NCBI RefSeq assembly: GCF_000830885.1
Contig: NZ_CP006951.1
Span: 310,001-374,000 of the forward strand
Direction of reading: 5' to 3'
From: Dehalococcoides mccartyi CG5
GTDB taxonomy: Bacteria > Chloroflexota > Dehalococcoidia > Dehalococcoidales > Dehalococcoidaceae
Length of the DNA: 64,000 nt
Shown: positions 22,543 through 35,521 of the stretch, in pieces
Layout: every line of letters begins with the position of its first letter
Position numbering within the stretch: the first letter of the stretch is position 1
The notes under the pieces: generated by a model
Told to the model about the DNA's origin: nothing
The model's database searches: none
What the model saw: the letters and a program-made list of their open reading frames with translations, nothing else
Translations under genes and position numbers: made by a program

Positions 22543-23409
22543 TCATCTGGGCTGGTTCAGGTGATACATGGCCTGATAGGCTTTTTCAAATCCCGGTTCT
22601 GTACGGGCAAGGTTATCTTTAAGGGTTTGCATCCGGCGGGCAAATTCGGCCTTGTCGCCATTTTTTACCAACTCAGCCCATTCGGTTGCTCTTTTTATAA
22701 AATCGGCTTCCAGTTTGGGCAGCTTGGGCATATTTACCTGCAAAGAAGCATACAGGCCGGGGTCTTCGGTTAAAACGCTTTTGGTCAGGGTATCCAGCAG
22801 GCGGAACGTAGTACCGCCGGCACTACTTATGCCGGGCAGGTTTTGCCCCAGCAGGGTATCTGCCGATACTATGGCTATAAAGTGAGCCAGCCCCAGTACT
22901 ACGGACATCAGCCGGTCATGCTCTTCCGGGCTGATCAGCCTAACATTACCGCCTTGTTTTTCCAGCCATGTTTTTACCCCTTGGGCAAGGTCAGTTTCCG
23001 GGGCGGTGGTGGGTGTCAATATAAAGTTATACCCTTTAAGTGATTCAGCTCCCGGCCCGAATACAGGGTGAGTGCCTAGTGTGCGGCAGTGAGGCAGGTA
23101 CTGGTGCATCAGTTCCACCGGGCGTTCCTTAACTGAACACAGGTCAAAAACCAGTTGGTCTGGTTTGGTAAACGGGGCAAGTTCCCTAAGGGTATCTTCA
23201 AAAGCGTCAATAGGTACTGATATTATCAGACAGTCCATGTCTCCCAGCATATCAGGCCGGGTTGCCGCCTGAACGCCCAAGCGGGTGGCTATGGGTGCAA
23301 GTTTGGACGGGTTTCGCCCCCAAAGCCAAACCTGATGGCCATTTTCTGTCAGGAAACGGCCGAACCATTGACCCATTTTGCCGCTGCCGCCCAAGATGCC
23401 TATTTTCAT
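22543..23409 (-). CDS. tyrA: Prephenate dehydrogenase
   Basis: NAD(P)-dependent oxidative decarboxylation of prephenate to 4-hydroxyphenylpyruvate, the tyrosine branch. The 288 residues have a Rossmann start IGILGGSGKMGQWFGRFL, LGTHPVFGPGAESLKG (active-site His region, about 100-115) and VLGLAHFIAIVSADTLL. There is no ACT domain. It is the last gene of the aromatic operon; the ATG overlaps the pheA TGA by 4 bases. Confidence 0.92.
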   Translation of the reverse strand: MKIGILGGSGKMGQWFGRFLTENGHQVWLWGRNPSKLAPIATRLGVQAATRPDMLGDMDCLIISVPIDAFEDTLRELAPFTKPDQLVFDLCSVKERPVELMHQYLPHCRTLGTHPVFGPGAESLKGYNFILTPTTAPETDLAQGVKTWLEKQGGNVRLISPEEHDRLMSVVLGLAHFIAIVSADTLLGQNLPGISSAGGTTFRLLDTLTKSVLTEDPGLYASLQVNMPKLPKLEADFIKRATEWAELVKNGDKAEFARRMQTLKDNLARTEPGFEKAYQAMYHLNQPR

Positions 23410-24482
23410 ATGCGTTTTTTCATTTTCGGGTAAGAACCGAGTACTTTCATAAATATTACATGGTCATCGGCTTTTGCCAGTGCCTGTTTCACATTTTCGT
23501 CCTGACGGTGGCCTTCTATATCAAGGTAAAAATTGTACTCCCAGGGTTTAAGACGGGTGGGACGGGATTCCAGCTTGGTCATGTTTATTCCGCGGGAGGC
23601 CAGTTCCTTTATAAAATCATACAGCGCCCCGGCCTGATGTTTGACGGCAAAAACTACAGATGTTTTATCACTCCCGGTAGGAGCGGAATCCTGCTTGGCA
23701 AGGACAAAGAAACGGGTGTAGTTGTTTATATTGTCCTCTATTTCCCGTTCCAGTACCTTCATATTATATATTACGGCCGCTCTTTCGGAAGCGATAGCCG
23801 CCCCGTTTAAAAGACCTTTTTCTTTAATCATTTTGACACTGCCGGCGGTATCGTAGGTAGGTATCAGCTCTGCCCGCAGATGCTTCAGAAATGACTGGCA
23901 TTGACCCAGTGCCTGCGGGTGGGAATAAATGGTTTTTACCGCTTCAAGGTTGGTTTCAGGGTTGGCTATCAGGCAGTGTGAAACCCTGAGCTCATGTTCG
24001 GCGGCAACCATAAGGTTGGAATCCAGCAACAGGTCATAGGTGCGGGATATAGAGCCCTCAAGCGAGTTTTCCACCGGCACTACTGCAAAACGGGCCATAC
24101 CCTTTTCCACAGCTTCAAAAGTAGCATCCAGCTGTTCACAGGGCAGGGTAAGAGTGTTAGGGCCGAATATCTTCAGGGCGGTTTCTTCACTGTATGCGCC
24201 GGCCGCTCCCTGAAAGGATACAGTGAAGCGTTGCTGTTTTTTAGATATGAAAAGGATTTCCTGATACAGGGATTCAATATCCTGCGGGTCAAGACCCAGA
24301 GACTGGGCAAGTGACTGAACTCTGTTCAGTACCTCTGATTCGCGGGAAAGGTCCTGAACAGGCGAATTGGTTTCTTCTTTGATTTTGCCTATCTGGTCTG
24401 ACACTTCAAGCCGCTTTGCCATCAGCTTTACAAGCTCGGTATCCAGGTTATCAATCTGTTTGCGCAGGTCAGAAAGGTTCAT
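23406..24482 (-). CDS. pheA: Bifunctional chorismate mutase/prephenate dehydratase
   Basis: 358 residues in three parts: an AroQ chorismate mutase helix bundle (1-80, [25 protein letters not shown]), the dehydratase with [18 protein letters not shown] and the catalytic [10 protein letters not shown], and a C-terminal ACT domain with the Phe-binding [21 protein letters not shown]. It converts chorismate to phenylpyruvate and is expected to be inhibited by Phe through the ACT domain. It overlaps aroC and tyrA by 4 bases each. Confidence 0.95.
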
Positions 24483-25573
24483 TGTTTTATTACCCTTGGT
24501 ATTATTCCGGCTCTCAGTGCCAAATCAGCCAGCACTATGCAGGTCATGGCTTCCACTACTGAAACTGCTCTGGGTACAATGCAGGTATCATGGCGGCCGC
24601 GTATTTCCAGACTGGTATTGGTCATGGTATCAAGGTTTACGGTGGGCTGAGACAGGGAGATAGAGGGAGTGGGTTTTACGGCTACCCTGATATGGAGCGG
24701 CATGCCGTCTGAAATTCCTCCCAGTATCCCGCCGCAGTTGTTGCTTGTGGTGCGTATTTGGTCTGACTGGATATTAAAAGGGTCATTATTTTTTGAGCCA
24801 CGCAGACGTGATGCGCCAAAACCCGCCCCAAATTCCACCCCTTTTACCGCCGGTATGGCAAATATGGCTTTGGCCAGTTCGCCTTCAAGGGTATCAAACA
24901 CCGGTTCACCCAGACCAACCGGCAGGTTAAGCCCTATACACTCCACAACCCCGCCCAGACTGTCACCTTCTTCGGCGGCTTGCTGGATGAGGGCTACCAT
25001 TTGTTTACTGGCCGCAAGGTCAGGGCAGTTTACATCACTCTGGCTTATATTCTGGCGGATATCTTTGTGTTTAGGCAATTTGGCCGTTATGCCTCCCAGT
25101 TCGGCGGTATAGCCAATCACCTCAATGCCGATAGTGGAAATAAGTTTACGGGCAATAGCTCCGGCCATAACGTGCCCTGCTGTAATCCGCCCGGAAAAAC
25201 GCCCTCCGCCGCGGTAATCGTTGAAGCCTCCGTATTTCATAAAACCGGTAAAATCTGCATGCCCCGGCCTGATTTTACTGCGGGTGCGTTCATATTCGCT
25301 TGAATCTATATTTTTATTCCAGATAACCAGACAAATGGGTGCGCCGGTGGTGAAATTATTGAATATACCGGAAAAAATTTCTATCCGGTCATCTTCACGG
25401 CGGGGAGTGGTATGGGCTTTAGCTCCGGATTTACGTTTGTCTACCTCAATTTGAATTTCATCTACATTTATAGCAAGGCCTGCCGGTACGCCGTCAATTA
25501 CTACTCCCACGCAATCTCCATGGCTTTCACCAAAACTGGTAATCTGAAACAGCTTTCCCAGACTGTTAGACAT
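24479..25573 (-). CDS. aroC: Chorismate synthase
   Basis: FMN-dependent 1,4-elimination of phosphate from EPSP to give chorismate. The 364 residues show [14 protein letters not shown] (14-27), [36 protein letters not shown], and the C-terminal [18 protein letters not shown]. It lies between aroA (8-base overlap) and pheA (4-base overlap). Confidence 0.97.
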
Positions 25574-26828
25574 CTTGTGTTACCTTTCCGCCGAGGCTTT
25601 CCAGATTCTTCCAAAAATCAGGATAGGTTTTGGTTACGCACTCAGCATCTGAAATATGGGTTTCCCCGACAACTGATCCCAATATGCCAAAAGCCATGGC
25701 AATACGGTGGTCTCCGAAGCTGTCAATCTCTGCGCCTTTGGGTTGTCCGCCCTCAATAATCAGGCGGTCATCTTCTTCGATAATGTTTATACCCATGGCA
25801 CTCAACCCCTGGCTGACTGCCCGAATGCGGTTAGACTCTTTGATACGTGCCTGACGGACTCCGCTTAATATGCTTTGTCCTTTGGCACAGGCCGCGGCTA
25901 CTGCCAAAGCGGGCAATAAATCTATGGAGTGGGTAAGGTCTGCGTTTATACCTGAAAGGGGTTTGGGGTTTACCTTTACCCAGTTTTGACCGCTTTCTAT
26001 TTCTGCTCCCATCTCCGCGAGGAATTTTATCATTATGCGGTCAGCTTGAAAACTGTCTGTGTCCAGGTTGGATATAAATACCGGGGCGGCAATTGCCCCC
26101 AATGCCAGAAAACTTGATGCCGAAGACCAGTCTCCCTCTACCCGGTATCTGGCAGGCAGGTAGGGCTGGGGCGGGATGCTTATCTCTTGCCAGTCTATAG
26201 AAGAATGGACTTTTATCCCAAAGCTTCCCAGCGTTTGCTTGGTCATTTTTAAATATGGCAATGAAGCCGGCGGTGTAGCCAGATGGATTTCCAGACCGTG
26301 GGTGCAGGCTGGTGCCATAAGCATAAGGGCAGAAACGTATTGTGAGCTTATATTGCCGGGCAAACTCACCTTTGAACGGGTGATAAACTGTCCATTGATA
26401 ACGGTGGTATTGCCGCGGGTTTCTATCTCTATACCCAGTTGGTGCAGGGCTTGAATCAATGGCAACATGGGGCGTCTCATCAGGGAGTGCCCGGCCAGCA
26501 GGTGGCACTCAAAAGGCAGTCTGGCACATACAGCTGACATAAAACGCAGGGTAGCGGCAGATTCACGGCAGAACAGGTTGCCGGAAGGTGCTTTGAAGGT
26601 ATTGCCGGTAATTTCCCAGTTTTCAGAACCGGCGTCAGTGCTTATATCTATACCCAGCCCCGAAAGCACCTGGCGGGTAGCCAGAGTATCGTCTGCAATC
26701 AGGGGGCTTATTATGTGGCTCTGGCCGTTTGCCTGGGCGGCAGCTATCAAGCCACGTATGGTGTAGCTTTTTGAGGAAGGAACGGCAATATTTCCACCGG
26801 GTAAACTTTTATCCAGATGTATTTTCAT
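25566..26828 (-). CDS. aroA: 3-phosphoshikimate 1-carboxyvinyltransferase (EPSP synthase)
   Basis: Joins shikimate 3-phosphate and PEP. The 420 residues contain [15 protein letters not shown] (Lys of the PEP/S3P site, about 18-32), [27 protein letters not shown], and [15 protein letters not shown]. The motif around residues 80-90 replaces the common GNAGT with CRESA, as in many class II or divergent forms. It overlaps aroK by 20 bases and aroC by 8 bases in the aromatic operon. Confidence 0.95.
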
Positions 26829-27339
26829 ATTTCCTCAAACTGTCTTCTATTTCTTCGCAGACTTCATGGCATGATTTGTTATGGGTGGAAACAGTGATAT
26901 CCGCCGCATCTCTGTATAGCGGCAATCGGCTTTCCAGCAACTTTAACATCTTATCTGAACGTTCAGCATTAAATAACGGACGGTTTGTATGATTTTTCAA
27001 GCGGTTTTCCAAATCTTCAGGGCGGCTTTCCAGATAGACTACCAGACAGTTTAAACGCATAATGCTCAGGTTGTGGGGGCGGGTAACTATGCCGCCGCCG
27101 CAGTCTATAATCTGGTTTGGATTCTGGCAGATATCTTCCAGTACTTTGCTTTCCATCTGGCGAAAGTAATCTTCGCCATTTTCCTTGAATATATGGCTGA
27201 TACTTAAGCCTTCCCGTGTTTCTATGCAGGCATCTGTACTGACCAGCGGTTTGCCAAGCTTTTCGGAGAGCAGTTTTGAGATGCTGCTTTTACCGGCGCC
27301 CATAAAGCCTATTAAAGCGATGTTATTTTTCGTTTTCAT
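26809..27339 (-). CDS. aroK: Shikimate kinase
   Basis: 176 residues. P-loop [14 protein letters not shown] (11-24), [16 protein letters not shown] with the shikimate-binding Asp, and [11 protein letters not shown]. It phosphorylates shikimate at the 3-position using ATP. The start lies inside aroE (17-base overlap) and the end inside aroA (20-base overlap), which makes translational coupling likely. Confidence 0.95.
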
Positions 27340-28183
27340 CTAAAGCCATCTCTGCTTCTTTCATCATCACCCGGAAAGGGGCTTTTTGGCTTGTCCAGAT
27401 TTCAAATGACATAGCTCCCTGCCAGACCAGCATTTCCAGCCCGTTTATTATCTTGGCGCCTTTCTTTTCGGCATCTTCCAGCAGGCGGGTTTTGCATGGG
27501 TTGTAGATAGCATCTATGACCGTCAGGTCAGGACGCAGCAAACGGGGGGGGATAAGGCTTTGCCCGGCTAGATTTCCCATGCCTATGGGTGTGCAGTTCA
27601 CGATAATATCAGATTCGGCTAAAGTTTCTTCCAGATTAGCCTCATTCAGTTCCAGCCCCTGAGCCTTGCCTTTAAAACGCAGGCACATTTTTGCGGCCAG
27701 ATCTTTGGCTTTTTCCTCCTGGCGGGCAAGCACGGTCAAGTGTCCGCCAAGGGTACAAATAGCCAGTGAAATGGCATGGGCGCTGCCTCCTGCCCCCAGC
27801 AGGGCAAAGCGATGTTTGGCAGGGGCAATGCGGTTATGCTCCAGTAAACGCACAAAACCGCCAAAATCAGTATTATAACCTTTCAGCTGGCCGTTTTCAT
27901 TGACAATGGTATTTACCGCCCCAATCTTTTTAGCCGCCGGATCAAGGGTATCAATATATTTAATGATCTCTATCTTGTGAGGGATGGTCACATTCAGACC
28001 GCGTATATTCAGAGGACGCATGCTGGCAATTACGTTTTGCAGGTCTTCTGGTTTGGCTGCAATAGTCAAATACAAATAATTCAGCTTGCAGTGTTTGAAG
28101 GCAGCATTTTGCATAGCCGGTGAGACGGAGTGACTTACCGGATAACCAATAATCCCGAATAATGCATCAGGTATGGTTTGCAT
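27323..28183 (-). CDS. aroE: Shikimate dehydrogenase
   Basis: NADPH-dependent reduction of 3-dehydroshikimate. The 286 residues include [17 protein letters not shown] (substrate-binding Ser pair), [15 protein letters not shown] with the catalytic Lys, [20 protein letters not shown] with Asp, the nucleotide loop [12 protein letters not shown], and [10 protein letters not shown]. Overlaps with aroD (17 bases) and aroK (17 bases). Confidence 0.96.
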
Positions 28184-28835
28184 AATTTACCGACCGGTAG
28201 ATTTCAATCATTTGAGCCAGGGTCATCTGACCTGATGCAGACTTATTGCCGTCATTCAGGCTGGCGTAGGTAAAAGGGCTTCCGGCCAGCGGGCAGAGTA
28301 TACGGCTCAGAATGCCCGGTTCCCCCATGGCAAAAGCGACAATTTTCTTATCCGGTATCTCCTTTGTCAGATTAAGCAGATTAATATTATCATTTATTGA
28401 GGTGGCAGTGGTAATTACCTTATATATGTCCGCCTGGTGGGTGAGCATATCCTTTAGGAGCGTCTTAAGCTTGGCCGCAGAAGGAGTATCAGTAAAGTTG
28501 TGATGGGATAACAAGCACTTTGCCTGTGGTCTGAGCCGCCCAAGCACTTCCTCCAGATTGGGGGTGGAATATTCAATATCCAGCATGAAGGCACCGGCGG
28601 ATGCGGCTTTTTCCAGCCTGTTTATCCGCTCAGCTTCATTTCCTTTAAAACTGCCCCCTTCGGCAGACCTGCGGCAGGTGGCCATAAAGGGTTTGTTAAG
28701 TAATACCGCCGTCTCCCGCCAGTTTTCACCCAGCAGATCCAGCCTCAGTTCGTAAAAGGCTGCACCTTCACTCTTCTTCAGGGTCTCAGCCTGAGGAAGC
28801 TGGGTTATTACACAGCAGATTGGCGGTATTTTCAT
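28167..28835 (-). CDS. aroD: 3-dehydroquinate dehydratase, type I
   Basis: Schiff-base class I enzyme. The 222 residues contain YELRLDLLGE (28-37), CLLSHHNFTDTPS with the catalytic His, and IYKVITTATSINDN with the Schiff-base Lys. It dehydrates 3-dehydroquinate to 3-dehydroshikimate. It overlaps aroB by 4 bases and aroE by 17 bases. Confidence 0.95.
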   Translation of the reverse strand: MKIPPICCVITQLPQAETLKKSEGAAFYELRLDLLGENWRETAVLLNKPFMATCRRSAEGGSFKGNEAERINRLEKAASAGAFMLDIEYSTPNLEEVLGRLRPQAKCLLSHHNFTDTPSAAKLKTLLKDMLTHQADIYKVITTATSINDNINLLNLTKEIPDKKIVAFAMGEPGILSRILCPLAGSPFTYASLNDGNKSASGQMTLAQMIEIYRSVNYANHT

Positions 28836-29911
28836 TTCATTTCCTCCAGTACGGAAAGAACATCCGGCTTAAGTATATTTTCAGCTATCAAAGCCTCCCC
28901 TGGTCTTTTTAAGAGTATAAAGCGGATACGTCCGTCTGATACCTTTTTATCATGATGCATGGCTTCAATAATTTTGTCCGGGTCTATATCCTTGGGGTTG
29001 GTGGGTAGCCCGAAATCGGCTATCAGTTTTTCCAGCCGCAAGGCAGTTTCATTTTCGCATAAACCCAGCCTGACCGAGAGTCTGGCGGCAAAACACATGC
29101 CGATAGCTACCGCTGCCCCGTGGCTTTGGCTGAAAGACGAGGTGCTTTCCAGTGCGTGCCCCAGAGTGTGCCCGAAATTCAGTATATTTCTGATGCCGCG
29201 GTCAGTTTCGTCCTGACAGACTATGCTGGCTTTGATGGCGGCAGTCTGGCTGACAATATCCTCCATAACTTCCGGAGAACGGTCTTTGACTGCTTGGGTA
29301 TTTGTTTCCAGCAATCTGAACAACTCACTGCTGCCAATGGCGGCACTCTTTATTATTTCGGCCATGCCGCAGGCAAATTCTTTTTCGGGCAGGGTTTTCA
29401 AGCAGCCGGTATCGGCAATGACTAACCTTGGCTGGTAAAAACTGCCTACAATATTCTTGACCCCGCCATGGTTTACCGCCACTTTGCCGCCGATGCTGGA
29501 ATCTACCTGTGACAGCAGGCTGGTAGGCAGGTGGATAAGCGGGACACCCCGCTGGTAGGTGGCGGCTACAAACCCGCTCAGGTCGCCAATTACCCCGCCG
29601 CCCAAAGCCAGTATCGGGGTATTCCTTTCGGCAAAGTGGTTGATTAGCTGGGGATAGATATGGGCGGCCATATCCAGAGTCTTGTGTATTTCGCCCTCAG
29701 GAAGTTCCAGAAACAAGCTTTCAATGCCCTTTGATTCAAGGTGTTTTTTCAGCTTTTTACCGTAAATCCTGTTTATATCTATATTGGTGATGACTACCAC
29801 TCTGTCACAAGGGATAGCTTCCCTTAGGAGAGTGGCTGTTTCAGACAGTAAATCACTTCCTATCAATATCTTGTATTCACGCCCACTTAGATTAAGCCCA
29901 ATACTTTTCAA
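28832..29911 (-). CDS. aroB: 3-dehydroquinate synthase
   Basis: NAD- and metal-dependent cyclisation of DAHP. The 359 residues have ALGGGVIGDLSGFVAATYQRG (about 103-123), PTSLLSQVDSSIGGKVAVNH, and the metal-ligand region NFGHTLGHALES. The start is TTG at 29911 with AAGGAAAG upstream. It is second in the aromatic operon, 19 bases after aroF. Confidence 0.96.
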   Translation of the reverse strand: MKSIGLNLSGREYKILIGSDLLSETATLLREAIPCDRVVVITNIDINRIYGKKLKKHLESKGIESLFLELPEGEIHKTLDMAAHIYPQLINHFAERNTPILALGGGVIGDLSGFVAATYQRGVPLIHLPTSLLSQVDSSIGGKVAVNHGGVKNIVGSFYQPRLVIADTGCLKTLPEKEFACGMAEIIKSAAIGSSELFRLLETNTQAVKDRSPEVMEDIVSQTAAIKASIVCQDETDRGIRNILNFGHTLGHALESTSSFSQSHGAAVAIGMCFAARLSVRLGLCENETALRLEKLIADFGLPTNPKDIDPDKIIEAMHHDKKVSDGRIRFILLKRPGEALIAENILKPDVLSVLEEMK

Positions 29912-29930: not shown

Positions 29931-30986
29931 TTAGTGTTTTTTCACCAGTTTGTTTATCTGACGGCAGGTGTCAATGAGTTCTTTCAGTTCCGGCGGAGTT
30001 ATCATTTGGGATGCATCCACCAGAGCTTCTGCCGGGTTGGTATGCACTTCCACCATCAGTCCGTTAGCCCCGGCGGCCATGGCGGCACAGCTCATGCTGT
30101 ATATCAGATCACGCCGTCCGGTGGCATGGCTGGGGTCAACCATGATGGGCAGGTAGGTTTCCTTTAAGGCTATGGGTACTGCCGCCAAATCCAGATTGTA
30201 GCGGGTGAAGCTTTTACCCTTGCCCACCGGCACTATGCCTCTTTCGCACAATATTATATCCTTATTTCCTTCTGCGGCTATATATTCGGCAAAGGAAAGG
30301 AATTCTTCCATACTGGCACCGAAGTGGCGTTTGTACATAACGGGTTTGCCTTTTCTGGCCACTGTTGCCAACAGATCCTGATCATACATATTGCGCGAGC
30401 CTACCTGTAGTATGTCTACAAATTCGGCTACCAAATCTGCCTGTGATTCGCCCCGCACCTCGGTCATTACTGCCATCTCAAAGCGTTCTCCGGCCTCTTT
30501 CAGCCAGGAAAGGGCTTCGGTGGCCTCATCCTTGCCGGCAGAACCCAGCCCCTGGAAAGAATGGACAGATGAGCGGGGTTTGTAAACGCCGCCTCTGAGT
30601 ATCTGGGCACCGGCCATCTTTGCCCCTTCGGCTATTTTCATCAGGGCTTCTTTGCTTTCCACTGCGCAAGGCCCGGCAATGAAGACCGGCTCGTCTCCGC
30701 CGATAATTATATCTTTTACTTTTATCTCACGGGTCATTCCTTCAGCCTGCCACAGGTTTGAGTATTCGCGGCTGATAAGCTTGTACGGGGTTTCCACCAT
30801 ACGGGCTTCCTTGACGCCGGGCAAGCTGGAAAAGTAAGCAAACGGGATAGATTTTTCATCTCCTATAAGGCCGATAATGGTTCTGAATGCCCCCTTTGAT
30901 ACATCGGTCTTGAGACCGCAGCGGCGAACCTCGGCAATTACGTTTTCTAGTTCTTCCTGACTGGCATCTTTTTTCATGATAATCAT
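29931..30986 (-). CDS. aroF: 3-deoxy-7-phosphoheptulonate (DAHP) synthase with N-terminal ferredoxin-like domain
   Basis: Condenses PEP and erythrose 4-phosphate, the committed step to aromatic amino acids. The 351 residues comprise an N-terminal ferredoxin-like regulatory domain (about 1-70), as in the Thermotoga-type type I beta enzyme, then the barrel with FIAGPCAVES, GGVYKPRSSVHSFQGLG, QVGSRNMYDQDLL, VMYKRHFGAS and PIMVDPSHATGRRDL. The regulatory domain suggests Tyr/Phe feedback inhibition on top of the attenuation upstream. The ATG at 30986 follows AAAGGAGA. It is first in the nine-gene operon. Confidence 0.95.
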   Translation of the reverse strand: MIIMKKDASQEELENVIAEVRRCGLKTDVSKGAFRTIIGLIGDEKSIPFAYFSSLPGVKEARMVETPYKLISREYSNLWQAEGMTREIKVKDIIIGGDEPVFIAGPCAVESKEALMKIAEGAKMAGAQILRGGVYKPRSSVHSFQGLGSAGKDEATEALSWLKEAGERFEMAVMTEVRGESQADLVAEFVDILQVGSRNMYDQDLLATVARKGKPVMYKRHFGASMEEFLSFAEYIAAEGNKDIILCERGIVPVGKGKSFTRYNLDLAAVPIALKETYLPIMVDPSHATGRRDLIYSMSCAAMAAGANGLMVEVHTNPAEALVDASQMITPPELKELIDTCRQINKLVKKH

Positions 30987-31027
30987 GGTTTGCTTTCTCC
31001 TTTGCTTTTTATACCCGTATAAATCAA

Positions 31028-31054
31028 AAATCCCCCCGTTGCCTGGGAGGATTT
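31028..31054 (-). terminator. Attenuator terminator of the aromatic operon
   Basis: On the minus strand AAATCCTCCC (31054-31045) pairs with GGGGGGATTT (31037-31028), 10 bp with one G-U, around a 7-base loop. T-rich sequence follows (TTTTTGATTT counting the last stem bases). It lies 42 bases before the aroF ATG, inside the leader rather than at an operon end. Confidence 0.85.
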
Positions 31055-31121
31055 CTAACTTACTAATTGGTGGTTATTGGTTTTTTAGTAAAACGTTATC
31101 TCCCAAGCGATCCTATCTTGG
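31042..31121 (-). promoter_or_regulatory. Alternative antiterminator and protector structures of the aro attenuator
   Basis: In the minus-strand RNA, segment 1 CCAAG (31121-31117) can pair with segment 2 CUUGGGAG (31107-31100). Segment 2 can instead pair over 8 bp with segment 3 CUCCCAGG (31049-31042), which is part of the terminator's 5' arm. A 7-bp hairpin UUACUAA/UUAGUAA (31091-31085 with 31066-31060) sits between segments 2 and 3 and would bring them together. AAACGUU (31156-31150) with AACGUUU (31097-31091) can close the 1:2 stem from outside. Confidence 0.8.
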
Positions 31122-31161
31122 TAAAGTAGTAATAGTTTCTAAAGGATTTAACGTTTAACAT
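31096..31161 (-). CDS. Tyr/Phe-rich leader peptide of the aromatic operon
   Basis: A 21-codon frame from ATG 31161 to TAA 31096, too short for ordinary gene calling. Residues 6-15 read SFRNYYYFTK: three consecutive Tyr codons flanked by Phe codons, both end products of this operon. Segment 1 of the attenuator (CCAAG) covers codons 14-15, directly after the Tyr/Phe run, and segment 2 covers the last codons before the stop. This is the arrangement expected of a sensor peptide. The ATG is about 3 bases from the predicted transcription start, with no ribosome site, so translation would be leaderless. Confidence 0.8.
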   Translation of the reverse strand: MLNVKSFRNYYYFTKIGSLGR

Positions 31162-31170
31162 AGTTGAATG

Positions 31171-31200
31171 ACAATAGCATAGCTGAAAAGGGTTTGTCAA
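31171..31200 (-). promoter_or_regulatory. Promoter of the aromatic amino acid operon
   Basis: The minus strand reads TTGACA (31195-31200), an 18-base spacer ending TGC, and TATTGT (31171-31176): a perfect -35 and an extended -10. The predicted start is about 31164. The -35 shares bases with the -35 of the divergent rpsL promoter P1. Confidence 0.8.
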
Positions 31201-31222
31201 GAGAACTATTTAGTGCTATTAT
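31194..31222 (+). promoter_or_regulatory. Ribosomal superoperon promoter P1
   Basis: TTGTCA (31194-31199), 17 bases ending TGC, TATTAT (31217-31222): a near-consensus promoter with an extended -10. The predicted start is about 31229, giving a leader of about 278 bases before rpsL. The -35 overlaps the minus-strand TTGACA of the aro promoter through the shared TTGTCAA. Confidence 0.7.
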
Positions 31223-31235
31223 ATGTAGTCTTTTT

Positions 31236-31315
31236 CCCTGGTGGTTGTTATCGGTCGGGCAGCGGATAAGTGCCCTGAGGCAGACGGGGGTGTTCTCCAG
31301 CTTCAAACCAGCGGG
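31236..31315 (+). other. Possible structured RNA in the rpsL leader
   Basis: GC-rich compared with the flanks. By eye it can close as CCC/UGGU (31236-31242) with ACCA and GGG (31307-31315), enclosing a 5-bp hairpin GGGCA/UGCCC (31257-31261, 31271-31275) and a weaker CUG/CAG stem (31275-31277, 31298-31300). This resembles a three-way junction. I do not recognise a known riboswitch, SRP RNA or 6S RNA. It lies between P1 and P2, so only P1 transcripts carry it. Confidence 0.3.
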
Positions 31316-31334
31316 TTGTCAGTGATGGGTGGAG

Positions 31335-31363
31335 TTGACATCCATATATTGCTGTGCTAGACT
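31335..31363 (+). promoter_or_regulatory. Ribosomal superoperon promoter P2
   Basis: TTGACA (31335-31340), 17 bases ending TGC, TAGACT (31358-31363): a perfect -35, ideal spacing and an extended -10. The predicted start is about 31370, leaving a leader of about 137 bases with two hairpins. Confidence 0.75.
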
Positions 31364-31394
31364 AACTTTCTGTTTGTGGTTAACTTTCAGGTTT

Positions 31395-31413
31395 GACCAT
31401 ATCCATTATGGTC
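31395..31413 (+). other. rpsL leader hairpin A
   Basis: GACCATA-TCCAT-TATGGTC is a perfect 7-bp stem with a 5-base loop, present in both P1 and P2 transcripts. No T-run follows. It may be a regulatory leader structure. Confidence 0.5.
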
Positions 31414-31427
31414 GCCTTATAGATTTT

Positions 31428-31450
31428 AAGGATGGGCCTGGCTCATCCTT
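31428..31450 (+). other. rpsL leader hairpin B
   Basis: AAGGATGGGC-CTG-GCTCATCCTT is a 10-bp stem (one G-U) with a 3-base loop, 57 bases before the rpsL ATG. What follows (ATTGATTG) is not a terminator tract, so read-through is expected unless a protein changes the fold. Confidence 0.55.
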
Positions 31451-31506
31451 ATTGATTGAAAACGGGAAAATTATTAAAACAGCAATTGTTAACAGGAAGG
31501 TACAGT

Positions 31507-31941
31507 ATGCCAACGGTTAATCAGCTAGTAAGAAAAGGGCGCACAAGTGCGGCCAAGAAGTACAAGGCACCTGCGCTGCATTACAGTTTCAATTCTCTGC
31601 GCAACAAGGTAGCTTTCGGTGATGGCTCTCCCCAGAAAAGGGGCGTCTGCACCCAGGTAAAAACCACTACTCCTAAAAAGCCGAATTCGGCTTTGCGCAA
31701 GATTGCCAGAGTAAGGCTGAGCAACCATATGGAAGTTACTGCTTATATCCCCGGTGAAGGCCATAATCTTCAGGAACACTCTGTGGTTCTGATACGTGGC
31801 GGCCGTGTGCCTGACCTACCGGGTGTTCGTTATCACATCATTCGCGGTACTCTTGATACCGCTGGTGTGGCAAATCGGCAGCAGGGTCGCAGCAGATACG
31901 GCGCCAAAAAAGGCAAAGCCGCTCCTGCCAAGAAGAAATAA
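31507..31941 (+). CDS. rpsL: 30S ribosomal protein S12
   Basis: Decoding-centre protein. The 144 residues include [32 protein letters not shown] (the streptomycin region with Lys in PKKPNS), [13 protein letters not shown] and [10 protein letters not shown] start at the ATG at 31507, with AGGAAGG 6 bases upstream; the open frame begins earlier at 31456 but that part is leader. The Ala/Lys tail is a little longer than in E. coli. First gene of the superoperon. Confidence 0.97.
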
Positions 31942-31954
31942 CCGGAGATAAAAT

Positions 31955-32425
31955 ATGCCTAGAAGAGCACGAAAATTTAAAAGAGCAGTTGCCCCGGATT
32001 CCAGGTATAACAGCCTGATGCTTTCCAATTTCATAAACAAGCTTATGATGCATGGCCAGAAGGCCACCGCCCAGAGGATTGTTTATGATGCAATTGATAT
32101 AATGGGTAAACAGGAAAATAAAGAGGGTTTGGCGGTATTTGAGCAGGGTCTTAAAAATGCCACTCCTTTTATTGAGGTTAAACCCCGCCGTGTAGGCGGT
32201 GCTACTTACCAGGTACCTATTGAGGTGCGTCCTGACCGCGCCCAGACCATGGCCATGCGCTGGATTATTAAGGCCGCCCGCAAGCGGACCGGCAAGTCTA
32301 TGGCTGAAAGGTTGGCTTCTGAAATGCTGGAAGCCTCCCGTGAGCAGGGTGCTGCTGTTAAGAAAAGAGAAGAGACCCACAAGATGGCCGAGGCCAACCG
32401 CGCTTTCGCCCATTACAGGTGGTAG
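31955..32425 (+). CDS. rpsG: 30S ribosomal protein S7
   Basis: 156 residues, normal length. MPRRARKFKR start, LSNFINKLMMHGQKATAQRI and RRVGGATYQVPIEVRPDRA are S7 signatures. It nucleates assembly of the 3' domain of 16S rRNA. In enterobacteria S7 represses the str operon; no S7-like site is evident in the 13-base S12-S7 gap here. Confidence 0.97.
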   Translation: MPRRARKFKRAVAPDSRYNSLMLSNFINKLMMHGQKATAQRIVYDAIDIMGKQENKEGLAVFEQGLKNATPFIEVKPRRVGGATYQVPIEVRPDRAQTMAMRWIIKAARKRTGKSMAERLASEMLEASREQGAAVKKREETHKMAEANRAFAHYRW

Positions 32426-32447
32426 AGAGAAAATAGGGGGAATTGGA

Positions 32448-32463
32448 TAACCCTGACGGGTTA
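32448..32463 (+). other. Hairpin before fusA
   Basis: TAACCC-TGAC-GGGTTA is a perfect 6-bp stem with a 4-base loop, 17 bases ahead of the fusA ATG, where a strong Shine-Dalgarno is lacking. Possible translational control of EF-G. Confidence 0.4.
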
Positions 32464-32480
32464 CCCAGAGTTTAGATAAT

Positions 32481-34562
32481 ATGAGCGACAGGAAATACCC
32501 TCTGGAGAGGGTTCGTAATATAGGTATCATTGCCCACATAGACGCCGGAAAGACGACTACGACTGAGCGTATCCTTTACCTTACCAAACGTACCCATAAA
32601 ATCGGCAATATTGACGAGGGTACCACCGTAATGGACTGGATGGAGCAGGAAAAAGCCAGAGGTATAACTATTACTTCTGCCGCTACTTCTGCTTACTGGA
32701 ATGGGCATCACCTTAACATTATAGATACTCCCGGACATGTGGATTTTACCGCTGAGGTTGAGCGCAGTCTGCGTGTACTTGATGGCGGGGTGGTGGTATT
32801 TGACGGAGTGGCCGGTGTTGAAGCCCAGTCTGAAACTGTATGGCGTCAGGCCAGCCGCTATGGTGTACCCCGTATCTGCTTTATTAACAAGATGGACCGC
32901 ACCGGTGCTAATTACGAACGTACTCTGGGTATGATTGCAGAACGCCTTAAGGCCAAATATCTGCCTCTTCAGATACCCATTGGTTGTGCTGAAACTTTCC
33001 GCGGCAACTGTGACCTGCTTGATTTCAAGTGTTACGGTATGGATAACAGCCCGGAAGAACCTGTTGAAACATTTGATTTGCCCGCTGCTGAAAAAGAACG
33101 GGCTGTGAAATTCCGCAATATGATGATAGAGCGTCTGGCTGAAGAAGATGACGAGGTTATGGAAGCCTATCTGGCCGGTGAAGAACTGCCGATAGAAAAG
33201 CTGAAAGCCGCTATCCGCCGGGTATGTTTGGCCAATAAAGCCATTCCCATATTCTGCGGCACTTCTCTTCGCAACAAGGGCGTAAAAAGACTGCTGGATG
33301 CGGTCTGTGACTATCTGCCTTCACCTTTGGACATTCCGGCTATGAAAGGGACTGATCCTAAAACTGGTGAATCGATAGAGCGTCATACCAGTGACACCGA
33401 GCCTTTCTCCGCTCTGGCTTTTAAGATTGTATCCGACCCGTTTGTAGGTCGTCTGGTATACTTCCGGATTTACTCCGGTAGCATTTCAGCCGGCTCCGGT
33501 GCTTATAACAGCACCCGCGGTGAGCGTGAACGCATAGGCCGTCTTATCCGTATGCATGCCAATGACCGTGAAGAGATTGAGTATGCTGATGCGGGTGAAA
33601 TCGTGGCCAGTCTGGGTCTTCGCAATACCTTTACCGGTGACACCTTGTGCGACCAGAATGCTCCGATTTTGCTTGAAAATATCAAGTTCCCTGAACCGGT
33701 TATCAATTTGGCCATAGAGCCTAAGACCCGTTCGGACCAGGATAAGATGACTGAAGGTCTGCAGAAACTGGCTGAAGAAGATCCTACTTTCAAGGTCAAG
33801 TTTGATGATGAGACCGGACAAACTGTTATATATGGTATGGGAGAACTTCACCTTGATGTGCTGGTCAGCCGGTTGCTGTCTGAGTTCAAGGTTAATGCAG
33901 GCGTGGGTAAACCCCGCGTAGCGTATCGTGAGGCCATTACCGCTCATGCCAAGGCACAGGGTAAATTTGTCCGCCAGTCCGGTGGTCGCGGTCAATATGG
34001 TGATGTTACTATTGAGATTGAACCCCGTGAGCGCGGCGCAGGTTACGAATTTGTTGATAACGTTAAGGGTGGGGCTATACCCCGCAACTTCCTGATGGCG
34101 GCAGAGTCCGGTATCAGGGATACGTTGGAGACTGGTGTATATGCCGGTTACCCCATGGTTGATGTAAAAGTAATCGCCACTGATGGTAGCTACCATGATG
34201 TAGACTCTAATGAAAATGCTTTCAAGATGGCTGGTTCCATGGCTATCAAAGCGGCTGTTGCCAAGGCAAAACCGATACTGCTTGAGCCCATTATGAAACT
34301 TGAAGCAGTCACTCCTGAAGAATATATGGGTGATGTTATCGGTGACCTGAATTCACGCCGGGGGCAGATTATCTCAGTAGAACCCAGTCCTGAAACTACC
34401 GTTATCACTGGCACCGTGCCTTTGGCTGAAAGCTTTGGTTATACTACGGATCTTCGGTCAGTAACCAAGGGACGGGCTACTTTCTCTATGGAGTTTGAAT
34501 CTTATCGTGAAATGCCAGGCGAATTGGCCACGCAGGTCGTTGAAGCCGCCGGCAAGAAATAA
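32481..34562 (+). CDS. fusA: Elongation factor G
   Basis: Translocation GTPase. The 693 residues include G1 AHIDAGKTTTTERIL (about 18-32), the switch I region GTTVMDWMEQEKARGITITS, G3 DTPGHVDF and G4 NKMDR, then domains II-V with RGQYGDV and GYPMVDVKV. It follows S7, but unlike the classical str operon no tuf gene follows; rpsJ comes 24 bases later. Confidence 0.97.
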   Translation: MSDRKYPLERVRNIGIIAHIDAGKTTTTERILYLTKRTHKIGNIDEGTTVMDWMEQEKARGITITSAATSAYWNGHHLNIIDTPGHVDFTAEVERSLRVLDGGVVVFDGVAGVEAQSETVWRQASRYGVPRICFINKMDRTGANYERTLGMIAERLKAKYLPLQIPIGCAETFRGNCDLLDFKCYGMDNSPEEPVETFDLPAAEKERAVKFRNMMIERLAEEDDEVMEAYLAGEELPIEKLKAAIRRVCLANKAIPIFCGTSLRNKGVKRLLDAVCDYLPSPLDIPAMKGTDPKTGESIERHTSDTEPFSALAFKIVSDPFVGRLVYFRIYSGSISAGSGAYNSTRGERERIGRLIRMHANDREEIEYADAGEIVASLGLRNTFTGDTLCDQNAPILLENIKFPEPVINLAIEPKTRSDQDKMTEGLQKLAEEDPTFKVKFDDETGQTVIYGMGELHLDVLVSRLLSEFKVNAGVGKPRVAYREAITAHAKAQGKFVRQSGGRGQYGDVTIEIEPRERGAGYEFVDNVKGGAIPRNFLMAAESGIRDTLETGVYAGYPMVDVKVIATDGSYHDVDSNENAFKMAGSMAIKAAVAKAKPILLEPIMKLEAVTPEEYMGDVIGDLNSRRGQIISVEPSPETTVITGTVPLAESFGYTTDLRSVTKGRATFSMEFESYREMPGELATQVVEAAGKK

Positions 34563-34586
34563 GTATACTGGTTAGGGTGATATTGT

Positions 34587-34895
34587 ATGGCTAAACAAAA
34601 AATCAGGATAAAACTCAAGGGCTTTGACCACAAGATTCTGGATCAGTCTGCATTGCAGATTGTAGAAGCTCTGGAACGGACAGGGGCTACTATATCAGGG
34701 CCGGTTCCTCTGCCTACCCGTATCCAGCGTTACAGTGTCATACGCGCATCCTTTATTGATAAGGATTCACAGGAACAGTTTGAGATAAGGACTCATAAAC
34801 GTCTTATTGACATAGTGGAAACTACATCTAAGACTATTGATGCCTTAACCAATCTGAACCTCCCAGCTGGCGTAAGCATAGATATTAAACTTTAG
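34587..34895 (+). CDS. rpsJ: 30S ribosomal protein S10
   Basis: 102 residues, typical size: [37 protein letters not shown] and the C-terminal [11 protein letters not shown]. It is also the NusE antitermination partner of NusB. First gene of the S10 section, joined to fusA by a 24-base gap without a terminator or visible promoter. Confidence 0.97.
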
Positions 34896-34903
34896 GAACG
34901 AAT

Positions 34904-35521
34904 ATGATTCAAGGTATTATCGGTAAAAAAATCGGTATGACCCAGATATTCCAAGAGGACGGCAAGGCTCAGCCGGTCACCTTGGTGGAGGCTGGTCCGT
35001 GTGTAGTGGTCCAGGTCAAGACCGAAAAGCAGGACGGCTATGAGGCTGTTCAGCTAGGTTACGGCAAGGCCAAGCATATCACTTCGGCTGTAAAGGGCCA
35101 GTGCAGAGGCTTTGGTGAATTCAAAGTGCTGCGCGAAGTAGATGTTGATGATATTGCGGCGGTCAGTGTCGGTGACCAGATTACGGTCAGTGACTTTAAG
35201 GACGGCGAAAAGATAGACGCCAGTGGCGTCTCCAGAGGGCGTGGTTTCTCAGGCGTTGTAAAACGCTGGCATTTTGCCGGTGGTCCCAAAACCCATGGTC
35301 AATCTGACCGTCATAGGGCTCCGGGTTCCATCGGTTCCACCACCACCCCCGGCCGTATTTATAAGGGCAAGCACATGGCGGGTCACATGGGGAACGAGGC
35401 GGTTACTATCCGCAATCTGGTTGTGCTTAAAACCGACGCAGAGAAAAATCTGCTGATGGTCAAGGGCGCTATCCCCGGTGGCAAGAATACTATAATATTA
35501 ATTAAGAAAACGGGTAAATAA
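34904..35521 (+). CDS. rplC: 50S ribosomal protein L3
   Basis: 205 residues with GIIGKKIGMTQIF at the start and the peptidyl-transferase-reaching loop (KRWHFAGGPKTHGQSDRHRAPGSIGS region, about 118-150), including the Gln-containing methylation region. Early 23S assembly protein. Gap of 8 bases after rpsJ. Confidence 0.97.
   Translation: MIQGIIGKKIGMTQIFQEDGKAQPVTLVEAGPCVVVQVKTEKQDGYEAVQLGYGKAKHITSAVKGQCRGFGEFKVLREVDVDDIAAVSVGDQITVSDFKDGEKIDASGVSRGRGFSGVVKRWHFAGGPKTHGQSDRHRAPGSIGSTTTPGRIYKGKHMAGHMGNEAVTIRNLVVLKTDAEKNLLMVKGAIPGGKNTIILIKKTGK

Follow-up and report, generated by a model that had tools for sequence, protein, structure and literature searches.

Genomic setting of the aroF-rpsL region

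The window analyzed here, a stretch of 64,000 nucleotides from Dehalococcoides mccartyi CG5, carries two divergent operons whose first genes, aroF and rpsL, are separated by a start-to-start gap of 520 bp that holds both promoters and a putative attenuator. On the minus strand, aroF (29931-30986) encodes a DAHP synthase (NF006421, TIGR01361) and is the first gene of an aro operon that continues with aroB, aroD, aroE, aroK, and further ORFs (22543-29911); we take the ORFs after aroK to be aroA, aroC, pheA, and tyrA. The plus strand carries rpsL, rpsG, fusA, rpsJ, and rplC (31507-35521). The DNA belongs to one contig of 1.36 Mb, and a plasmid search gave no match. DAHP synthases 57-59% identical to the query also occurred in two records titled Candidatus Bathyarchaeota (L223 and L224), perhaps reflecting transfer or misbinning.

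Two predicted divergent promoters on one -35 heptamer

The heptamer TTGTCAA at 31194-31200, around which the window reads ggtTTGTCAAgag, contains a -35 element for each strand (plus, TTGTCA at 31194-31199; minus, TTGACA at 31195-31200). The plus-strand promoter of rpsL (P1) runs from TTGTCA at 31194 across a 17-bp spacer to TATTAT ending at 31222, with a TG preceding the -10 (extended -10 TGCTATTAT, 31214-31222), and the minus-strand promoter of aroF runs from TTGACA at 31200 across 18 bp to TATTGT ending at 31171, also preceded by TG (extended -10 TGCTATTGT, 31171-31179). Each agrees with the consensus at 10/12 positions, and their starts are predicted at about 31229 (plus) and 31164 (minus). 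The two -10 elements are separate (31171-31176 on the minus and 31217-31222 on the plus strand), and only the -35 is common to both. An earlier note on this DNA had described one TTGTCAA holding both -35s with an extended -10 on each side, and the sequence and a promoter scan confirmed that description at every coordinate. The locus thus has divergent, overlapping sigma-70-type promoters whose core elements overlap on opposite strands, a geometry in which two polymerases exclude each other, and we infer activity of both promoters, with occupancy of one excluding the other.

Part of the overlap comes free, because the opposite strand of any TTGACA with an A after it holds TTGTCA, shifted by one base; a well-placed extended -10 on both sides of the heptamer is not built in by the near-palindrome. 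At a threshold of at least 10/12, this was the only pair with overlapping -35s in the window, and none appeared in 20 dinucleotide shuffles; the same was true of TG-extended pairs at 9/12 or better (one in the window, none in 20 shuffles). A lax setting (9/12, no TG) returned two pairs against a shuffle mean of 0.6. The other lax pair (28364-28393) lies within the aroD coding sequence, matches 9-10 of 12 positions without a TG, and is probably due to chance.

Conservation of the promoter pair across Dehalococcoidales

Across the order, 94 aroF places were found at a minimum of 61% identity, and the upstream regions of 90 were examined; G141, G021, G067, and the second G132 fragment were left out, as was a second DAHP synthase family (at most 47% identity). 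An rpsL gene would escape notice if it lay beyond the inspected stretch of about 240-1500 bases. Of 89 genomes, 85 had a called aroF promoter (the exceptions being G018, G130, G033, and G099), with a perfect TTGACA and a TG-extended -10 at 80 of these 85 loci. In G099 the contig is broken at this place, the shared pair lying on the rpsL-side fragment.

The shared heptamer had an extended -10 on either side, the opposite-strand one being counted at 16-18 bp, at 16/25 aroF loci that face rpsL versus 3/60 others (Fisher p = 1.7e-8), counts that are not independent, since the deep forks of the aroF tree (54 rows) are too weak to tell one origin of the arrangement from several. By genus, the shared extended pair was present in any member in 5/9 rpsL-facing versus 2/35 other genera (p = 0.002), and in the majority of members in 3/9 versus 0/35 (p = 0.006). 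The background from slid positions was 0.014 per locus. The 16 positive loci comprise genus g1 (G000, G001, and G002), five of family f16, six of f35, one of three in f20, and one of two in f26. Because the arrangement is absent or weak at the other nine of the 25 rpsL-facing loci (all three f27 genomes, G017, G035, G149, G081, G057, and G074), the aroF/rpsL gene pair can do without it. Among loci without rpsL, the three that have it face what are presumably a thrS-like gene (G112) and a macro-domain gene (G103 and G121). A natural control for the opposite -10 is genus g2, of the window's own family, where rpsL is not in view: all eight genomes keep the aro promoter and none has the opposite -10. 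The heptamer itself, TTGACAA on the aroF strand, was found at 25/25 rpsL-facing loci, and its seventh base is A at 40/60 others.

Among 156 genomes of the order, 26 carried a total of 27 matches to a strict 52-bp pattern of the arrangement, and the reversed pattern gave none; 17 matches adjoin rpsL, three adjoin aroF with another neighbor, and seven lie elsewhere. Within f16 (6/6 genomes) and f35 (6/6), all 17 pattern positions are invariant, but 25/35 and 13/35 non-pattern positions vary, respectively, so that the spacers drift. The window's own genus offers three nearly identical sequences with one of 35 non-pattern positions variable, which says little on conservation. All 20 strict matches at this locus combine one 17-bp and one 18-bp spacer, in the order 18/17 in g1, G029, and G112 and 17/18 in f16, G059, f35, and two f37 genomes; shared ancestry may lie behind part of this regularity. 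The 17/17 and 18/18 patterns matched four and two genomes, respectively, none at any of the 94 aroF places. Together, the window shuffles, the slid positions, and the reversed-pattern control rule out chance coincidence as the source of the pair.

The same shared -35 layout was also seen between a gene that we take to be dxs and a divergent membrane-protein gene in three families (L127 in G151, L128 in G081, and L137 in G031). Further shared -35 pairs lie at a presumed lexA-like and a presumed nrdR-like gene, both divergent, and at places in G132 and G024.

A second, unshared promoter predicted on the rpsL side

The promoter scan also identified a second plus-strand rpsL promoter, P2 (31335-31363; TTGACA-17-TAGACT with a TG), which shares no element, and the shared site is thus at most one of two rpsL inputs in the window. 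An unshared TTGACA promoter was present at 21/25 rpsL-facing loci, the four without one being in G060, G073, G025, and G091. P1 is the only rpsL promoter to reach a score of 11 in three f16 genomes (G073, G025, and G091), and in these the shared site may be the main rpsL promoter.

A structured autoregulatory rpsL leader was considered and set aside, because 31229-31506 folds just slightly better than shuffles do (z = -2.05), and we make no claim for it. The P1 leader holds several hairpins (31283-31298 and 31394-31450), and its GACGGGGGTGTTCTCC recurs as GACGGGGATATCCCCC or close to it in two relatives. The rpsL start codon is TTG in most rpsL-facing families, GTG in G149, and ATG in the window's genus and f26.

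A putative Tyr/Phe attenuator on the aro side

Between the aroF promoter and aroF lie the parts of a transcription attenuator (leader peptide, antiterminator, and terminator), a feature absent from the earlier note. A short minus-strand ORF (31096-31161, ATG at 31161) encodes MLNVKSFRNYYYFTKIGSLGR before its stop codon, a candidate Tyr/Phe sensor. Its last codons contain the 5' strand of the antiterminator, GCTTGGGAG (31100-31108, minus), complementary to the 3' strand CTCCCAGGC (31041-31049, minus), which is also part of the 5' arm and loop of an intrinsic terminator (31026-31056, minus) found by terminator scan and folding. All nine bases of GCTTGGGAG and CTCCCAGGC are complementary, with one G-U pair, and the duplex (-18.2 kcal/mol) was equaled by 0/100 shuffles; the leader as a whole folds at -45.3 kcal/mol versus -29.75 for shuffles (z = -4.2). 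The leader peptide has Tyr and Phe codons and no Trp codons, a composition that fits, because the operon reads as making Phe and Tyr.

This design recurs throughout the order. A candidate leader was found at all 90 aroF loci examined, and a Tyr/Phe(/Trp)-rich leader was accepted at 89 after L098, the second copy in G044, was judged unconvincing. At least six aromatic residues within ten were encoded at 68/90 loci, compared with 0/90 reverse strands and 7/1800 shuffles. Among the 88 leaders in the terminator and antiterminator analysis (L034 and L044 were out because of a TTG start or excess over the length limit), a terminator-like hairpin was present in 80, and among these 80 the antiterminator duplex was matched by at most 5/100 shuffles in 62; the eight leaders with no terminator and the 18 with no good antiterminator partly reflect hairpins placed before the leader stop. 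The paired antiterminator bases co-vary between families (CGCTTGGGAGGC with CCCTCCCAAGC, TGCTTGAGAGGT with ACCCTCTCAAGC, and CGCTCGGGGGGC with GCCCTCCCGAGC), and the same design of aromatic-rich leader and hairpin was seen at three aroF loci outside the order. The second aroF copy of G044 (L098/L111, G044:C33), with 61% identity to the query, lacks a convincing aromatic leader; the other copy in that genome, which faces rpsL, has one.

The region thus has what is expected of a trp/phe-type attenuator, namely a short ORF rich in end-product codons and a terminator between it and the first gene; the alternative antiterminator is supported by sequence complementarity and paired changes, and the ribosome would choose between the two structures. 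We infer that stalling on the leader peptide controls termination, and consider the attenuator more likely to be the sensor than the shared site. No Rfam family reached its gathering score within the window, and a riboswitch or T-box reading was rejected on this ground; a tRNA search of the window found none.

From the end of the -10 to the leader ATG there are nine bases in g1, 7-13 in the seven g2 genomes scored, and 25-47 in f16, f20, f27, and f35. With a start assumed 6-7 bases after the -10, about three untranslated bases would precede the leader AUG in the window, and because of this short predicted distance the transcript is probably near-leaderless. Leaderless genes have been predicted in 4/12 Chloroflexi genomes, according to the available part of that study (PMC3160421).

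Proposed mechanism and competing readings

We consider it likely that the locus holds a true divergent promoter pair on one -35 heptamer, together with a separate layer of control by attenuation on the aro side. The sequence itself shows what this reading draws on: the geometry and how it is conserved, the leader and terminator, and the complementarity of the antiterminator strands. Since the shared geometry is non-random and is kept in several families mainly beside rpsL, both promoters are probably used. On the minus strand, the housekeeping polymerase would start near 31164 and run directly into the coding sequence of the Tyr/Phe-rich peptide, predicted to be nearly leaderless. With an ample supply of charged tRNA-Tyr and tRNA-Phe, the ribosome would reach the stop codon and cover GCTTGGGAG, so that the terminator forms and transcription stops ahead of aroF. 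When they are scarce, the ribosome would stall at YYYF, and GCTTGGGAG would pair with CTCCCAGGC; this pairing would prevent the terminator, so that the operon is made from DAHP synthase through the Phe/Tyr branch. On the plus strand, P1 would drive rpsL and the genes behind it from the same -35, backed by the unshared P2. Because a polymerase could occupy only one promoter of the shared site at a time, firing of one would lower access to the other; the effect of this exclusion on output is probably modest.

The earlier note had gone further and proposed that aromatic synthesis and ribosomal protein synthesis may compete directly at this point. Exclusive occupancy stands, as it follows from the geometry, but direct competition is not supported as proposed, because it presumes that the shared site limits both operons, and rpsL has the unshared P2 while the aro operon has its attenuator. 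Some interference is plausible, since both promoters are close to consensus. In E. coli, interference at five bidirectional promoters was not marked while they worked at basal activity and emerged once one direction was strengthened, as described in the available part of that report (PMC12825309). On balance, economy or mild coupling seems to us more likely than a dedicated switch.

Economy without regulation is quite possible, although we stop short of calling it probable: the near-palindromic TTGACAA would offer a ready -35 to a back-to-back partner, and both genes would use it with negligible competition. Shared -35 pairs at other divergent genes (three at dxs, the lexA-like and nrdR-like genes, and those in G132 and G024) speak for it, as does the seventh A of the heptamer, common also where rpsL is not the neighbor (40/60). 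However, a gap of 520 bp between aroF and rpsL has room for separate promoters, and space alone forces no sharing.

It is unlikely, in our judgment, that the shared -35 was instead retained as a selected switch, in which mutual exclusion links ribosome production to aromatic synthesis. In its favor, several families with rpsL as the neighbor retain the pair, P1 is the sole rpsL promoter at score 11 in G073, G025, and G091, and all 20 strict matches have 17- plus 18-bp spacers, with no 17/17 or 18/18 pattern in those genomes. Yet an unshared promoter accompanies 21/25 loci, the arrangement is missing from 9/25, amino acid supply has its own sensor in the attenuator, and the E. coli bidirectional promoters interfere only at high activity, as far as the available text states (PMC12825309). 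The full version of this idea, a two-way switch kept by selection over several Dehalococcoidales families in a constant 52-bp frame, with the near-leaderless attenuator refining the aro side, likewise seems improbable; if true, every ribosomal-protein initiation would be one missed aromatic-synthesis initiation.

Quite doubtful is the idea that only the aroF promoter is real, P1 being a chance by-product of the palindromic -35, with rpsL using P2. The perfect -35 (TTGACA) of P2 and its occurrence at most loci without P1 would fit, but the rpsL-side extended -10 at 16/25 rpsL-facing loci, compared with 0.014 per locus from slid positions, and the drift of the spacers argue otherwise. Finally, the near-symmetry of TTGTCAA could suggest the site of a dimeric regulator rather than mainly a -35, but this is highly improbable given that the hexamer identity, the 16-18 bp spacing, and the extended -10s fit sigma-70-type promoters on both strands.

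Relation to known systems and significance

In the pheA and trp attenuators of E. coli, ribosome stalling at end-product codons chooses between antiterminator and terminator, and the same choice is proposed here. The Dehalococcoidales design differs in that an antiterminator strand in the last leader codons pairs straight with the terminator arm and no separate pause hairpin is defined. At aroF of Corynebacterium glutamicum (PMC4046766, available part), a short peptide with Phe-Tyr-Phe before a DAHP synthase gene was proposed to act by transcription attenuation; that bacterium belongs to a different phylum, whereas here a whole order repeats the set of YYYF-type leader, antiterminator, and terminator, and the operon extends to the Phe/Tyr branch. 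The leaderless attenuator peptide of C. glutamicum ilvBNC is translated without a ribosome binding site, according to the available text (PMC11857589), whereas the near-leaderless state here is predicted from the -10-to-AUG distance only, and in many of the order's other families 20-40 nt stand there instead. Among the papers searched, no report of a regulatory model for aromatic amino acid synthesis in Dehalococcoidales came up.

The bidirectional promoters of E. coli and Salmonella resemble the present pair in that a near-symmetric element serves two mutually exclusive polymerase orientations, but, in the parts of those reports available (PMC12825309 and PMC10268837), the two orientations share the -10, with starts separated by 7-25 bp, whereas here the -35 is shared, the -10 is not, and the predicted starts are about 65 bp apart. 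Separate divergent promoters are not classed as bidirectional in the available text of the 2026 paper (PMC12825309). Our search for a shared -35 in divergent promoters turned up no such case among the papers covered (one unrelated paper was returned), which does not prove its absence from print. The attenuator belongs to a known kind, and the shared -35 represents a variant of the bidirectional promoter that is less well described.

The recent work that we found on bidirectional promoters concerns a shared -10, and in the present case two centrally important, well-defined operons are linked by a shared -35. As this element can be traced over many species, whether polymerase exclusion is a selected signal or a matter of economy becomes testable. 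For the organisms themselves, the attenuator provides a clear model of how aromatic amino acid synthesis may be regulated in Dehalococcoidales, in which stalling on a Tyr/Phe-rich leader would set the output of the operon.
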